A stretch of 64,000 nt of DNA from Sistotremastrum niveocremeum HHB9708. Lineage: Eukaryota; Basidiomycota; Agaricomycetes; Sistotremastrales; Sistotremastraceae. This document shows, piece after piece, positions 29,576-64,000 of the stretch. Each line of letters starts with the position of its first letter. The first letter of the stretch is position 1. The stretch spans positions 1,145,972 to 1,209,971 of the forward strand of contig KV419398.1 of NCBI GenBank assembly GCA_001630475.1. The letters run 5' to 3'. The notes beneath the pieces were generated by a model. That model was not told the origin of the DNA. It did not search any database and saw nothing but the letters and a program-made list of their open reading frames with translations. Position numbers and translations under genes: made by a program.

Positions 29576-31328
29576 ATGTCCTCTTTTCTTTATTTCGTTG
29601 GGTTCTCTGGTTTCTCTCTTGTACATGCTGCCCCTTCCATTCAACGTCGTCAGTCTGGTAGCGATGGAAGTGGGATACAATCCTCTGTCTATGTGATTAC
29701 CTTCAACTTCCTTTGTTCCAAAATGGTCTCATTTTTTCCAATCAGATTCCTGTCATTGTAATTTTGGCTGCCTTGTTTGCTATCATCCTAGCAGGCGTTT
29801 TGCGAAGGAAATGGAAAGCGCGACAGGCGTCGCAAAGAGGAGCCAACTCGAACTCGGAAACCACCAGCACCCGCCAACTTACCGCAGAACAACTGACAAG
29901 CGGTAATCGTCAACAGACAAATGCTCAAAATACGACATCTAATGCCAATGCCACTCGTCCATCGCGTCCAAGACGAACCCGACGAACCCCCAGTCAGATG
30001 TCAGTGACGTCTTTGCCCTTGTATATGGAGGACCCCGGCGACACCGAACTCGTGCTCGTCAGGTCAGTGCTTTTTAATATATTCAAAATGCCTATTCACA
30101 CACAAACATCAGGAGTGAGAGAGAAATGGAGGATGAACCGGATTCATTACATCGTACAGAAAGTTATCCAGACAGTCAAAATTCCGGAAACGACGCCATG
30201 CCGCATTCAATGTCCTCTCAGACGTTGGGGACTATGGATCCCGATCACTCTAGACAGAGCTTTGAAACGCATATGACGGGTTCTGATGAGAGTGGAGCGC
30301 GTTTGATGCCCACTCCTCAACCTGAAGATCCTCGAGGCGAAGCACCAGCCTACTTTGAAGTGGTGGACCAGGATCACGACTCTAGACGCTCCCCGGGACC
30401 GGCACCCACGTCTCCCAATCGTTCTAGCGCTTCGAATCCTCGACATTCTCAGCAACCAGCATCGAGCTCTGAAGGCACAGGATTAATGCCGACTCTGCGA
30501 TCATTCTTTAGTCGAATTCCTGGCCCACCGACAATCTCAACCGCCCCTTCGTCATCGGGCCCTGCCTCACGGCATCGCTCAAACACGTCTGCCTCAGGTT
30601 CAACAGCTAATCTGTTGTCCTCTTCCAGCCCATCATCTTTGTTGACCCGGTCGCGATCGCGTCTGAATTCCCATCAGCGCTCTACGTCCGCGTTCTCTTC
30701 GACTTCGTCGTTAACCGGAAATCACAACCTTACATCACCCTCCATGATATCTCTGACTTCTATTTCTGCCCCTCTGCCCCATACACTCGTCCGCACCGAG
30801 TTCACTTACCCGAAGAACGGTCCGACTCCTGAGCAGATTAAGTTCATCGCAAGTCGAGAAAGTCTGGGTCGATTTGGAGTTCCTTGGGGCGACCTTGCTG
30901 TTGCGCACGCGAGAGAGCGAGAAAGAGACGGAGTCGAACCACCTTCCTTTGATAGTGTGGCTTCCGCAGACGTATCACCGAGTCGGCAGGCAGACGAGGA
31001 AGAAGTAGAGCCCGAACTTGAAGGAAGCGGACGAAGTCTTCCTCCTGTTGGTGAAGAATCGCACCCTTCGAGGCCTGTGAGCATTCGAGTGGTCAGTGCG
31101 AGCACCGTGCAGACCTTTGAAACGGCCCCTGAAATTGAGCGCGAGGTGGAAACTCCTACGCCTGGCGAAGCATCGACATCAGATCCATCCATTCGTCCGT
31201 CATCTCCCATGACATTAACACCGCCCCCTACACCCCCGCGAACAGCTATCCCTATCACAGTAGAACTGGCGTCGCAGCATGGGGCTGAAGCTTCTCCGCC
31301 GACGATAGTCGTGGACACGTCAGCTTAA
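29576..31328 (+). CDS. Single-pass membrane protein with signal peptide and long Ser/Pro-rich cytosolic tail
   Basis: Not assigned to a named family. The start MSSFLYFVGFSGFSLVHA looks like a signal peptide with cleavage near HAAPS; a very short luminal part (IQRRQSGSDGSG) follows. An intron (29686-29750) precedes the membrane segment IPVIVILAALFAIILAGVL, which is followed by stop-transfer residues RRKWKARQ. The remaining ~480 residues are disordered: polar Gln/Asn/Thr, then Ser/Pro-rich with GLMPTLRSFFSRIPGPP. A folded-looking island, RTEFTYPKNGPTPEQIKFIASRESLGRFG, lies near 30800-30880. A second intron is at 30065-30113. The topology resembles fungal plasma-membrane sensor or anchor proteins; this is inference. 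Confidence 0.75.
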
Positions 31329-31469: not shown

Positions 31470-32663
31470 TACACGGCCAGACATCCCAGAAAAAGAAACC
31501 CGTGAAGTGAATTATGAGACTTTCTTGCGGCCGAAAGTCTTTCTTTCGAGTTGATATCCTTGTAAATCAGGGTCTCGGAGCCTCCGTCCATTTCGAGAGG
31601 GCATAAAGGATAGCTAAGCGAGTCTTAGCGAGACTGTCATTACTCGACATTTAATATGAGTCACAAATGTCATTTCTTGAGTGCCAAATTCACTTTTGCA
31701 AGTCTAAAACGTTGAAACCGAAACCAACTTGTTGTCGGAGCCTCAAACTCTTCTCATCCCAAACCCTCATCTCTGCCTCATCTTCAACTTACGCATTGCG
31801 CCTCCAGGTCCTCCATCCCTGCCTCCGCTGATGCATCCACTCTCGTTCATGCTCCCAAGACTACTCCTCAACGCGTGTCTTTGTCCTTTCGGCATCTGTC
31901 GCACTGGAGCTCCAATCCCTCACCTTTCGATTCTCGCGCAGGACGTGTCTCGGTTCAGGTTGTTCGGATAGTTTATTGTTCTGGTCGGGCCCGCTGTTCG
32001 TACTGCGTGCTTTTAACTTCTCTCGCGTTCTTGCCGTCGTCAACTCATTGTCTGGGGGCCTTATTACTCATCTCAATCATCTTGCTCAATTCTCAAAATT
32101 CTTTCCCTATCGGCCCGTCAGCTGCACGATCTCGTGTCCTGGCCTTTCACCCACAGGCTCATGGGGGGATGAGTTAAAAGAGTACCGTATGTCACGACGT
32201 CGCAAGGTTGTATTGCGTTATCGAAGCTGGACGAGCCGTTTGGGTATGGTGATATGGCGAGTTAAAGGTAGTTCTGGAGAGGTGGGGTTTGAGCTGTATG
32301 CAGAGAGAGAGCAAGTACACCGTCTTCAGGGAGGATCAGTAGACATAGACTAAGACCAATGTGTAGGACGATAGCCTGTATCTCGTGGGGTAGCTTCTAG
32401 TCACATATTTATCATTTACATTGATTTTCTTCTGCCATAGTAAGGACCAAAAAAGGAATTATCTGCAAGAAGCGAGCCGCGGAACAGCTGCCGACTGGAT
32501 TAAACTAGATTTCTTTGGAATTTTTTGGATTTAAAGATCCAGAAATGTCGGAATTCATGTTAGCAAATCGGTTACTTCTGTGCGAAAATTTTATGTTTTC
32601 TATGCTATCCGTATGGTTCCCCAAAAGATACGCTTATCTTTTTTCGGGATGTCCGCCTGTGTA
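31470..32663 (+). mobile_element. Non-autonomous TIR element, copy 1 (TA-flanked)
   Basis: This arm has its own terminal inverted repeats. It begins TACACGGCCAGACATCCC-AGAAAAAGA and ends, read from the other strand, TACACAGGCGGACATCCC-GAAAAAAGA: about 28 nt, imperfect. Both ends are bounded by TA (31470-31471 and 32662-32663), matching a TA target-site duplication as made by Tc1/mariner-type transposases. The 1.19 kb interior holds no transposase, only short open frames, so the element would need a transposase supplied elsewhere. Superfamily assignment rests on the TA flanks alone. Confidence 0.7.
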
Positions 32664-32701
32664 AAACAAAATAAAAGAAAGAAAGAAAAGAGAGAACACA
32701 G

Positions 32702-33895
32702 TACACAGGCGGACATCCCGAAAAAAGATAAGCGTATCTTTTGGGGAACCATACGGATAGCATAGAAAACATAAAATTTTCGCACAGAAGTAACCGATTT
32801 GCTAACATGAATTCCGACATTTCTGGATCTTTAAATCCAAAAAATTCCAAAGAAATCTAGTTTAATCCAGTCGGCAGCTGTTCCGCGGCTCGCTTCTTGC
32901 AGATAATTCCTTTTTTGGTCCTTACTATGGCAGAAGAAAATCAATGTAAATGATAAATATGTGACTAGAAGCTACCCCACGAGATACAGGCTATCGTCCT
33001 ACACATTGGTCTTAGTCTATGTCTACTGATCCTCCCTGAAGACGGTGTACTTGCTCTCTCTCTGCATACAGCTCAAACCCCACCTCTCCAGAACTACCTT
33101 TAACTCGCCATATCACCATACCCAAACGGCTCGTCCAGCTTCGATAACGCAATACAACCTTGCGACGTCGTGACATACGGTACTCTTTTAACTCATCCCC
33201 CCATGAGCCTGTGGGTGAAAGGCCAGGACACGAGATCGTGCAGCTGACGGGCCGATAGGGAAAGAATTTTGAGAATTGAGCAAGATGATTGAGATGAGTA
33301 ATAAGGCCCCCAGACAATGAGTTGACGACGGCAAGAACGCGAGAGAAGTTAAAAGCACGCAGTACGAACAGCGGGCCCGACCAGAACAATAAACTATCCG
33401 AACAACCTGAACCGAGACACGTCCTGCGCGAGAATCGAAAGGTGAGGGATTGGAGCTCCAGTGCGACAGATGCCGAAAGGACAAAGACACGCGTTGAGGA
33501 GTAGTCTTGGGAGCATGAACGAGAGTGGATGCATCAGCGGAGGCAGGGATGGAGGACCTGGAGGCGCAATGCGTAAGTTGAAGATGAGGCAGAGATGAGG
33601 GTTTGGGATGAGAAGAGTTTGAGGCTCCGACAACAAGTTGGTTTCGGTTTCAACGTTTTAGACTTGCAAAAGTGAATTTGGCACTCAAGAAATGACATTT
33701 GTGACTCATATTAAATGTCGAGTAATGACAGTCTCGCTAAGACTCGCTTAGCTATCCTTTATGCCCTCTCGAAATGGACGGAGGCTCCGAGACCCTGATT
33801 TACAAGGATATCAACTCGAAAGAAAGACTTTCGGCCGCAAGAAAGTCTCATAATTCACTTCACGGGTTTCTTTTTCTGGGATGTCTGGCCGTGTA
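32702..33895 (-). mobile_element. Non-autonomous TIR element, copy 2, inverted
   Basis: Apparently identical to copy 1 but reversed. It has the same ~28 nt imperfect TIRs and TA at both ends (32702-32703 and 33894-33895). Its inner end faces the inner end of copy 1 across 38 nt. Identity of the two copies implies a very recent origin, gene conversion, or an assembly artefact. Confidence 0.7.
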
Positions 33896-34431
33896 GAGTC
33901 TTACACAGCTGATTTCATGGAAAAGCCTCGAATAATCAAACTCTTCACCTTGCCCCGGGGGTGAACTCTTCCAGAATTGCTTCGTTGTCTCGCCTGCAAC
34001 CACGACCCCTTTTGGGACCGCCCTGAAACGATGAGAATGGAACTCTAGGACATTAGTCACTTCAACGTTGTCTGACCGGACTGGCCTATACTGGGCTGAG
34101 AGTCATGAGATATCTGAATTGACAGGAAGAGTGCGTGGTTAATCTACCTGAGTCGCGGAGCCCCTCTGACTGTCTCAATTTGCATCCAACAGACGAGCTC
34201 GGCGTGAACGACCCCCCTCCTCCTCGAACATTGCAAAAAGGTCGCCGAGCTGAACGACGGACACGAGCAGGCTTGAGGGATATCAGGATTAGATAACTGC
34301 ATATTAGACAAAATTGAAGGGAAGGAATGACCGATACAGATGAGTAGGTCGAAGAACAGAAGAGAGTTGTGCACGCTTTGTCGGCGTCCAGCGTCGTGTC
34401 CCTCTCCGCTCGACAGTCACCACTTGGGACG
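33896..34431 (+). other. SET1 upstream region
   Basis: About 540 bp between the palindrome and the SET1 start. It contains a C-rich run (acgaccccccctcctcctcg) near 34207-34227. No independent gene is seen. Confidence 0.45.
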
Positions 34432-37400
34432 ATGTCGAGCGGTCCCGGCACCGCCAAAATACCTCCCACTGGGCCTCGCGCCCTTCTTCACAAGCAACCT
34501 CCCCACGGTCCTCTTGCGTCCACGTTGTCCTCGTCGTCGTCGATTGCTTCGACTTCGGCGGTCCACACGTCGTCGCCAACGGTTGCAAATTCATTTCCTA
34601 CGAGTACATACAATGCCCCCACCGCTCCTCGCGGATCAGTACCCTACAGACCTCCCGTTGTTCATGCTCTCCCTCCTTTGCCGACAGGTCCAAAAAATGG
34701 ACGCGTTCGAGGAGCAGGCGCGATCCCGTCGGGCCCTCGAAACAAGGTCAGTATACCTTTGGCACGCTCGGGCGCGTCGAGCAATCCCGAGGCTCAACCT
34801 ATAGCTTCTTCCTCTCGACAACCACCACCACCACCACCACCACCTCCTCCTCCTCCGTCTCGTCCCCGAAGTATTTCTCCTCAACCGCCGCCACCGCCGC
34901 CACCAACTCTTCCTTTTCCACCGTCTTCCTCGCAACATGAGTCTCCATCTCCTCCTCCTCCGCCACCACCACCATTGCCAGGCACTTCTCTCTCATCGCC
35001 GTCTGGCATAAAAATCGCATTTCCACGTAACAGGTTACCTTCGCCTGTGCCTCCACCTCCACCCTCTCCTCCACCTCCAGCCTATACTGTGTATTCGTGG
35101 CCTCCTCCAGCTCGAAAGGAATCAGACAGAAATTATAGGGTTATTTCTGAGATCCCTGACGATAAGAACCGGGACAGGGATAAGCCAAAGGTGAAAGAGA
35201 AGCTTGCCCATCGATACGATGGAGAGGGCGTACAGACACCAATCAACGATCCGAGACGTGCCATTAATTTCCCAAAAGAGTTCAAGAATCGAAAATATCG
35301 CGAACAACTGTATGAGCTTCCAATGTACGATGTGAGTAACGATCGCCAACAGCGTCTACCCAATTCTCTCTGTTTATTCACATCCTGTTCACAGTATGAC
35401 GATAATTCTTGTGGGCCTCCTCCTGCTAAGGCCGTTCTTGTCACCGGCTTGTCACCGTTGACGTCTGCGGCTCTCATTCGACGGCAGTTCTCTATGTACG
35501 GTGTCTTGCAAAATTTTGAAATGCAGAAAGAGAAAGCGACTGGAGCCTCTCTAGGGATCTGCTGGATCGAGTTCGAGACACACGAGATTGCCGTCAAGTG
35601 TGTAAAGGGCACCAACGGTCAGAGAGTTGGTGGACCCGGAGCGAACTTCGTCAAAGTCGTTCTCGACGGAGAGCAGAAGATGCTTCGGAAATCCCTGATC
35701 GATCACGAGAAAGAAAAGGAACGACAACGACAGCTGAGATTGGAAGCTTTGAAGCCGAAACCACCCCCTTCTCCACAACCTCCGGCAAACTCCCTCCCAC
35801 CTAACCCGATCCACGCTTCACTTCCTGCTAAACCTCCTCCCCAAGCAGTCCCTCTTCCTGAGGCTTTGTTGGCCAAGAAACTCGAGGTTGAAGAATCTCA
35901 ATCGGACGGTATTCATGGCAAACAATCTGTACGAAAAGCTGCCCCTGCGGCTCGCGAGCGCCGCGGTGCGTTCAAGAAAGATGCCGTCGCTGCCTTATGG
36001 GATCGTGACCACTATTCACCTCCGCGTGGAAGAAGTTGGTCACGGTCGCCGTCACCAGACGCACGTTATAGACGATCCGCCGTTTCGCAAGAGGAAAAAC
36101 GGAGAAATCATGAAAAGATTCTTGATCAGCTTTCGAGCAACGGCTTCAATCACGTCGTCATCGACAATTCAGCGACGATGGGTTTGGGCTTTACAGAAGA
36201 TGACGTGTATAAATGGTTCGACGAGTTCAAGGTTGATAGGGTAAGTGCGCGCACGTTAGTCTTATATGCCATCCCTGAGCAACCCATCAGATATTGCATG
36301 ACCATCTGGCGTGGTACATATCCTTCGAGGGTCCTGACGAGGCTCGGCGGTCAGTTCTATACCTGACGTCGCAACCAGCCACGCAATCGATTACAGTGTC
36401 GGTGCAGCCACCTCCGCCGGCATCCAAATACCGCGGACGTGATCCTGATTCTGTGAGCCGTCTCACCTTGCAAAGCACTGTTTCTCATCGATCTCTAGCG
36501 GAACGATTGGAACGATGACGAGCTCGTACGACGTGCGGGGAAGATCATTATGAGCGAGCTTGTGGCACTCGTGAAGAAGGATATTCGGGAAAGAGTGGTA
36601 GCGAAAGCCTTGAGAACTCTGGTTGATGAAGAAAGTCATGTTGCTGTGGCCTCTCGCCCTTCAGCACCTATCTTGCCCACCACTGGATCGCTGCCTCCTG
36701 CTTCCGCCGTCAATGGAGTGCGTAAGGAGGGTTTGAAAGGCCTTTCTTTCCGGAAACGTAAAGAGAAGATGGCCGACAGCGTCGTCAGGTCCGATCTGAT
36801 CGCCGAACGGGCTGCTGAACGGGACGAGGAGGTTGACCAGCTTGCTCCAGCACCCAAGCGTCGCAGACTGTCCTCAGAGTATGAGAGTGAGGACGATGAT
36901 CCGACGGAAGCAATCACCCCCGTATCTGCAGAGTTGCCTCCACCCGATGAGCCACATGGAGTCAAGCGACCTTTGGATGAGGTGGTTATAGATGAGCCAG
37001 TGGATGGGAGGAAAGCCAAGAAACAGAAGACTGCACCCAAGCCGAAACCTGCCAAGAAGGAGAAGAAGCCTGCGAAGGGTAAAACGAAGCAAGCTAAGGC
37101 AGAGCAGCCTGTGGATATCGAGATTGATGTTCCTCCAAGTCGACCGCCAACTGTCGAATTATCCGAGCCCAGTACTCCTATTGTTCCCCGTTCGCCCACC
37201 CCACCGCCGCCCTTACAAGCTATTGACCTTCAAAGAGAAGGCGTCGCTATTGACGGGGAGGATTTCTTCTTTCTCAAGTTGGCCATTAGTGGCCAGGACA
37301 CTCCTGAAGTCGAGGAAGCTCCAGAGACGGCCGACACTGACTCTACAACTACTCCCAGCGGCAACCCGAGCGGATCAGCGCGTACTGAGCGTGCCCGACG

Positions 37401-38213
37401 CGTCCCCCACTCGGAGAAAGCAGCCTATGTCGCCCAGTATACAGCGAGAGGCGCTGCGCCTGTTGAAGTCGAGGCCGTACCTGAACCTGTCCAGGTCACT
37501 TCGTCCAGATCCAACCGCGCCAATAACCGTCGGCGTGCCCAAGGGTTGGATGAAATCAATGCCATCAATCTGGCAATGGCGATGTCGAAGGGCGAGATTG
37601 GTTCTGATGTCACAGTCAAGTTCAATCAACTGCAGAGCCGCAAGAAGAACCTCAAGTTCGACCGGTCACCCATTCATGACTGGGGTTTGTATGCTATGGA
37701 GAGGATCGGCAAGGGAGAGATGGTGATTGAATACGTCGGAGAAGTTATCCGTGCACAGGTTGCGGATAAGAGAGAAAAGACGTATGAGAGACAGGGCATC
37801 GGAAGCAGTTATCTTTTCAGAATTGATGACGATCTTGTGGTTGATGCCACGAAGAAAGGCAATCTGGGGTGAGTCGATAATATCTTGGAAGTGACTGAAT
37901 CTAACATTCTCTGCAGGCGGTTGATCAACCACTCTTGTGATCCTAATTGTACTGCTAAAATTATTACGATCAATGGAGAGAAGAAGATTGTCATATACGC
38001 CAAGCAGGAGATATTACTGGGCGATGAAATCACTTATGGTGCGCAATTAGTTCATCTGCAATCTCTTATTCTCATGCTCTCTGCAGATTATCATTTCCCT
38101 CTCGAGGCTGAGAAGGTGAGCTTGCTTTTTTCTTCTTCAGGAGTACAAACTGATCGAGCACCTAGATTCCATGTCTTTGCGGTTCTGCTAAATGTCGCGG
38201 CTTCCTTAACTAA
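34432..38213 (+). CDS. SET1: Histone H3K4 methyltransferase SET1 (COMPASS catalytic subunit)
   Basis: Methylates histone H3 lysine 4. The preferred start is [19 protein letters not shown] (34432); an upstream in-frame Met exists at 34369. Order of parts: a disordered N terminus with long polyproline runs (about residues 135-225); SET1-type lead-in [21 protein letters not shown]; an RRM ([20 protein letters not shown], about residue 335); a second RNA-binding-like part ([20 protein letters not shown]); an nSET region with a Lys-rich stretch; the SET domain starting [20 protein letters not shown] with [28 protein letters not shown] and LGDEITYDYHF; and the post-SET cysteines in [13 protein letters not shown] at the stop. 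Introns include about 35332-35395, 36241-36290, 36454-36498, 37870-37917, 38040-38087 and 38116-38165. Catalytic motifs are intact. Confidence 0.95.
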
Positions 38214-62212: not shown

Positions 62213-62468
62213 GGAATATATTGTTGCATTGGTGATATTCTATATACCCAATGTATCTGGAACTCCCTTGATGAGTGCAACAGCTGAGGTTGCCCAAGGG
62301 AATTCCAAGTCCAATGAACTGCTGATTATATAAGCAGGACTCTGAGCATAGGGAGAGCAGAAATAAGGCTCTACAGCCTCAGACAAGATAAGGAAAGATA
62401 GGGAAATAATACCAGGCATAGGAATGACCATGTCAGGCATATTGGGATGCGCAGACAATATTCTAACA
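62213..62468 (-). mobile_element. LTR-like repeat, copy A (minus orientation)
   Basis: Read on the minus strand it starts TGTTAGAATATTGTCTGCGC and continues with the same ~250 bp as the copy at 63693, ending near ...ATATTCC. The TGTTAG start and unit length are typical of solo LTRs of Copia-type retrotransposons. No internal retrotransposon protein is present beside it. Confidence 0.6.
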
Positions 62469-63109
62469 TCTGCCTTATCCTTTATACCCATCCTGTATGT
62501 TGGCTGATGAGTCTGCAGGAACCTGAGGAAATGCCATGAGGTGAGCATTATTTTAGACTCTAAGAAAAGGTGGAAGTGCATTTGAGCTCCCACAAATTTC
62601 TTCATTGAACCACCATGACCATTGATGGATTCATGGGCTCTCAGCCTCAAGCTCAAGAGGGCAGCCAGCAGCCCCCAGAGCTTCCTTTGGCTCAACACTT
62701 GACAGGACAGTCCCTGTTCCCCCCTCAGCCGCTGAGTTGGGGGTTAACCCCAGCGTCTTTATCTAGTACCCCAAGCCTCACCTTTTCTCAAGCGTATGGT
62801 GGCTCGCAGGACGCTCATACACCTCAACCAACAGCTACCAGGCATCCTGTTGCAATCTAAGACACAGTGGAGGGTGATCTAGGATGCCTAGACAGACTCA
62901 GACACAAACACAGACACAGAGTGGGTGACAGCTGTAGTGGAAGACTGTACAAACAATAGTAAACATACATGAACTATGGATAACTACTGTGTACAAGGAA
63001 TATTTCTAACACATCCAATTCTCTGTAGTCACAACCTGCCCTCCCTCATCTGCAAGGTACTGTCATCACTTCTCACTTGATTATGTTTGTCTTCTAATGA
63101 CCATTCTTT

Positions 63110-63660: not shown

Positions 63661-63692
63661 TTTACCACACATTGGTACTCAGGTACAGATAA

Positions 63693-64000
63693 TGTTAGGA
63701 TATTGTCTGTGCATCCCAATATGCCTGACATGGTCATTCCTATGCCTGGTATTATTTCCCTATTTTTCCTTATTTTGTTTTGAGGCTGTAGAGCCTTGTT
63801 TCTGCTCCTCCTATGCTCGGAGTCCTGCTTACATAATCAGCAGTTTATCGGACTTGGAATTCCCTTGGGCAACCTCAGCTGTTGCACTCATCAAGGGAAT
63901 TCCAGGTCAGTAGTTGTACACTTTGTATTTAGCTGTTGCACTCATCAAGGGAATTCCAGATACATTGGGTATATAGAATATCACCACTGCAACATATTCA
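63693..64000 (+). mobile_element. LTR-like repeat, copy B (plus orientation)
   Basis: It starts TGTTAGGATATTGTCTGTGC and reaches at least the window end (...atattca). It matches copy A except for an internal duplication: the 29 bp word agctgttgcactcatcaaggg...ccag occurs at 63877-63905 and again at 63931-63959. The two copies are in opposite orientations, so they are not the paired LTRs of one element. Confidence 0.6.

Follow-up and report, generated by a model that had tools for sequence, protein, structure and literature searches.

A 2.4-kb palindrome of two identical TA-bounded transposon copies in Sistotremastrum niveocremeum, probably made by a short-range jump

Cut-and-paste DNA transposons of the CMCT clade (EnSpm-Mirage-Chapaev-Transib and kin) are characterised, in the sections of PMC12730594 considered here, by CA..TG ends and target duplications of 2-5 bp, and three families of the ESTA lineage (EnSpm-like, with TA duplications) which carry TET/JBP come, according to the same sections, from rust fungi. 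Here we analyse a palindrome found in a 64-kb stretch of DNA, called the window in the following, at the end of contig C5 of Sistotremastrum (now Sertulicium) niveocremeum HHB9708 (Agaricomycetes), whose genome assembly comprises 34.7 Mb in 111 contigs. The two arms of this palindrome are identical copies of a non-autonomous element, and it probably results from one very recent short-range jump made by an enzyme with a RAG1-like fold. Paired insertions close together, often inverted, are known from the local transposition of Ac/Ds and the P element. The transposition behaviour of fungal RAG1-like CMCT elements has, to our knowledge, hardly been studied; the locus would, if real, be a freeze-frame of recent transposition in this clade, with identical TA-bounded copies standing 38 bp apart.

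Structure of the palindrome

The palindrome consists of the following parts:

31470-32663: arm A including its TA ends, 1,194 nt
31470..31471: TA left of arm A, the presumed target-site duplication, judged by the empty site of the sister copy on C1
31472..32661, + strand: arm A, the non-autonomous element proper, from the CACGGCC end to the CACAGGC end
31472..31487, + strand: L terminal inverted repeat of arm A, CACGGCCAGACATCCC
32646..32661, - strand: R terminal inverted repeat of arm A, CACAGGCGGACATCCC on the - strand
32662..32663: TA, inner end of arm A
32664..32701: spacer of 38 nt, rich in purines and present once in the genome, putatively the original target DNA between two TA sites
32702-33895: arm B including its TA ends, 1,194 nt
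32702..32703: TA, inner end of arm B
32704..33893, - strand: arm B, the identical element in opposite orientation
33894..33895: TA right of arm B

The R ends of arms A and B face each other across the spacer. As the original prediction had it, the arms are 100% reverse-complementary without any mismatch or gap, the loop between them is 38 nt long and all four arm ends read TA. The terminal inverted repeats (TIRs) of about 28 nt, which had been called imperfect, are found as well: the two ends within one arm match at 15 of 18 positions (TA included) and at 22 of the first 28. The reverse complementarity does not extend past the ends of the element, the 30 bases outside each arm not being complementary to one another. 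Even with 3 mismatches allowed the spacer is found at a single place in the genome, both outer flanks are unique in the assembly, and the window is without any N.

Scanning the window for inverted repeats (14-nt seeds, 30-nt minimum) yielded, besides the palindrome, three pieces (I2-I4) of one diverged repeat and one 31-nt match of 77%. The fold of the central 271 nt of the palindrome has a z of -34.75, which was equalled by none of 200 shuffles, and the palindrome is far beyond chance. The diverged repeat lies at the very contig end (window positions 62222-62469 and 63692-63994) and consists of 64- to 125-nt blocks that are 94-97% complementary, with 1.2-1.6 kb between its arms. The spacer (32664-32701) is 89% purine on one strand, and an equal strand bias is reached by only 0.15% of the 38-mers of the window.

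The element family and its probable transposase

Comparing the arm with the genome gives at least 23 matches, nine of which are full-length, both arms included; the further copies that had been predicted for this non-autonomous TIR element do therefore exist. The other full-length copies are those on C1, C10, C4, C21, C49, C11 and C47. The C1 copy is 99.8% identical to the arms on aligned sites (2 substitutions and 1 gap), the remaining six are 86.5 to 92.2% identical. Eight further two-ended elements have interiors that are different or partly common, bringing the two-ended elements to 20 in total; three of the 20 are counted as coding, two of them firmly (C16, C39) and one tentatively (C50). 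For four exact L ends (C31, C98, C33, C18) the fetched stretch contains no partner end. Searching for the TIR with 2 mismatches results in 32 matches versus 0 controls, with 3 mismatches in 49 versus 11, and because controls also matched at this level, lone ends with 3 mismatches were left out of the counts. One relative (C10:655877; L029 1378-2470) is 1,093 bp long and has L-like sequence at both ends, with 1 and 2 mismatches, which suggests that two L ends may be usable by the transposase.

The expectation that the arm has no transposase in its interior is confirmed by the search with four query proteins, none of which matches (best E 4.1). Neither was there an Rfam match at gathering score, nor a Pfam match above cut-off for three open reading frames (ORFs) of the arm, one match staying below it with E 0.046.

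The flanks of 17 insertion sites, 70 bases each, were joined and searched in the genome as putative empty sites, 40 of 43 candidates being scored. Paralogs were found for four sites (C1, C16, C21, C5b) and none for the other 13. For the C1 copy, to which the arms are most closely related, the empty paralog is identical at 452 of 507 positions and has a single TA at the junction with no further repeated base. TA is therefore the duplicated target of the C1 copy and not part of the element, as had been predicted. The 7-kb element on C16 has two empty paralogs without extra bases, which support a 2-bp duplication but read TC at the site, and the paralog of the C21 site is ambiguous due to a 6-bp gap. 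For C5b only half a paralog is found, which counts against a simple insertion there. The C5b element (L019, C5:702308) shares 320 bp of its flank with C53 (L046) at 99.4%, cut exactly at the TA; the C53 unit is 585 bp long with 26-bp inverted ends, and the half that is absent at C5b is found only on C53. By sequence comparison this suggests a deletion or rearrangement at the end of the C5b element. TA stands at both ends of all 17 elements, a count which is in part circular, TA being the start of the search pattern, and from which C24:107087 was excluded due to one decayed end.

Two elements of about 7 kb, on C16 and C39, have the same ends as the arms and both code for a transposase; these are the firm coding elements with arm-type ends. 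As the arm has no transposase, the motifs of the CMCT clade were looked for in the transposases of this partner type. The motifs D-D-C(2)C-H(3)H-E are present in 61 of 61 aligned relatives of the C39 protein (P0047), where they correspond to D270/D271, D357, C376-x2-C379, H671-x3-H675 and E692/E695; which D and E would be the catalytic ones is a tentative assignment from the sequence. In a fold search the structure model of the C39 protein matches RAG1, ProtoRAG and Transib, and by the motifs and this modelled RAG1/Transib-like fold the C16/C39 transposase is placed in the CMCT clade. The arm ends (CAC...GTG) and the 2-bp TA duplication of the C1 copy agree with this clade. Neither single open frames nor the complete transposase gave a useful match in Pfam, and a profile search of the PDB sequences with the transposase gave one unrelated match (E 0.49). 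The C-terminal end of the C39-type model is predicted to be a BAH-like domain. For RAG, chromatin is read by the PHD finger of RAG2, and the partner transposase with its BAH-like end lets chromatin reading by such RAG1-like transposases be tested.

A coding element with the subterminal sequence of the arm itself was sought at C50, C12 (two loci), C24 and C23, and none of these is firm. At C50 a family-like pair of ends has 5 mismatches in 20, a result reached by 106 of 2,000 shuffles as well, and C50 is therefore only tentative. The best pair at C24 has 6 mismatches (equalled by 121 of 2,000 shuffles) and is not family-like; at the C12 and C23 loci no end pair was seen.

Origin of the palindrome

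We propose, with a probability of roughly 0.6, that the palindrome represents two linked insertions into TA sites 38 bp apart, which were moved in trans by a RAG1-like transposase. The arms would be two copies of a non-autonomous cut-and-paste DNA transposon of the CMCT clade with CAC...GTG ends and TA duplication, mobilised by the transposase of the 7-kb elements with the same ends in the same genome. One copy would have sat at a TA first; a second, identical one would then have been re-inserted in inverted orientation at a TA 38 bp away, most likely after excision from the sister chromatid once the DNA had replicated. Alternatively the same donor may have delivered two copies at the site, which would yield the same picture. 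Re-insertion of the sister copy would explain why the arms are identical, why the spacer exists once and why there are four TAs, and the exact limits at the element ends with TA at each junction call for ends made by a transposase. Under uniform random placement the 20 two-ended elements would be expected to give 4.2e-4 pairs no more than 38 bp apart, and the three young copies 6.6e-6 pairs; unless a strong hotspot exists, the two insertions are therefore linked events. The recent paired insertion suggested by the original prediction is supported.

Some points weigh against this proposal. Given the near-identical third copy on C1 (99.8%), part of the perfect match between the arms may stem from consensus building, a repeat consensus would yield exactly such identity, and the genome is a draft of 111 contigs. 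It could thus be that only one arm exists, or that each nucleus carries one arm at a different TA, and that these were merged or duplicated in the assembly. We consider such an artefact unlikely. Spacer and both outer flanks each occur once, the assembly shows neither a second locus nor an unoccupied version or alternative haplotype of the palindrome, each of the four junctions lies exactly at an element end in sequence free of N, and even insertions into two haplotypes at a distance of 38 bp would require linked events.

More doubtful is a foldback-like composite, in which a unit of two arms and spacer was formed elsewhere and inserted as a whole via its outer L ends. The outer ends are also TA, and the 1,093-bp relative on C10 indicates that L-L ends may work. 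However, we found no positive evidence for this second suggestion of the original prediction: the spacer has no second copy even at 3 mismatches (yet a cut-and-paste donor would leave none behind), and no other palindrome is present among the family places listed.

That one insertion was duplicated in inverted form via template switching or hairpin repair appears improbable. Fold-back priming is known to produce inverted duplications with short spacers, and ACACAG recurs near the junctions. The copy, however, ends exactly at the TA of the element with no flank carried along, and replication without a transposase cut would not respect this TA.

An element of the Tc1/mariner type, the original lead, is least credible and was set aside: a TA duplication is indeed found at the C1 empty site, but such duplications also occur outside Tc1/mariner and do not show it alone, and the transposase encoded by the elements that share the arm ends (C16, C39) is RAG1/Transib-like and carries C(2)C and H(3)H between D2 and E, although no genome search was aimed at a Tc1/mariner transposase.

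Neighbouring genes, silencing and known systems

The palindrome lies between the following open frames:

30126..31328, + strand: upstream neighbour ORF, which stops about 140 bp before the palindrome
34369..37872, + strand: downstream neighbour, with an RRM ORF (34369-36366) and a SET/N-SET ORF (36550-37872)

The upstream ORF has no Pfam match at E <= 0.1. The two downstream ORFs, which begin about 470 bp after the palindrome, presumably form one putative gene of a SET1-type histone methyltransferase. If real, a perfect palindrome of 2.4 kb lying about 0.5 kb upstream of a SET1-type gene would offer a test of how stable palindromes are and of silencing by hairpin RNA in mushrooms.

Mu killer of maize is an inverted duplication of transposon sequence proposed to yield a hairpin RNA by read-through (PMC3440606, in the part considered). 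It resembles our locus as an inverted transposon duplication near a host gene, but the arms of the palindrome lack transposase sequence. As a rather speculative analogy, which we regard as improbable, the palindrome might be a natural silencing locus of this kind, where read-through from the upstream gene would produce a perfect 1.19-kb hairpin RNA and small RNAs against the whole family. Piwi-domain matches are found on C14, C5 (two places), C3 and C51, with 13 exon matches, and also in one of 14 control genomes; the Dicer-dimer domain has three matches in the genome and none in the 14 controls.

Among the described lineages ESTA is the nearest, judged by described features. According to the sections considered (PMC12730594), ESTA shares with our family the TA duplication, the CAC...GTG ends and the RAG1 similarity of the transposase; TA is duplicated at the C1 empty site, the C16 paralogs reading TC. 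EnSpm/CACTA elements have CAC..GTG ends and the motifs in common with it, whereas the fungal EnSpm families in these sections have 3-bp duplications, unlike the single TA at the C1 empty site. Plavaka has the motifs too, but its ends are TGT..ACA (PlavakaA) or CATCA..TGATG (PlavakaB), whereas the arms end in CAC...GTG once TA is taken as the duplicated target. On these descriptions a KDZ/Plavaka identity was dropped.

The original prediction that the family may be undescribed stands as far as the searched literature shows: in the open-licence literature on fungal CMC elements with target duplications, on ESTA and on the transposable elements of the host species there was no account of the arm family. 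Its parent clade, in contrast, is already described (PMC12730594, same sections). Likewise, the open-licence literature on inverted or double insertions by local transposition tells of no such palindrome for the CMCT clade.

Transib, RAG1 and ProtoRAG are alike in the fold of the transposase model. The ends of RAG and Transib also begin with CAC, but their target duplications are about 5 bp, whereas the arm family has a 2-bp TA duplication. With the local transposition of Ac/Ds and the P element the palindrome has in common two identical close copies, each with its own target duplication.
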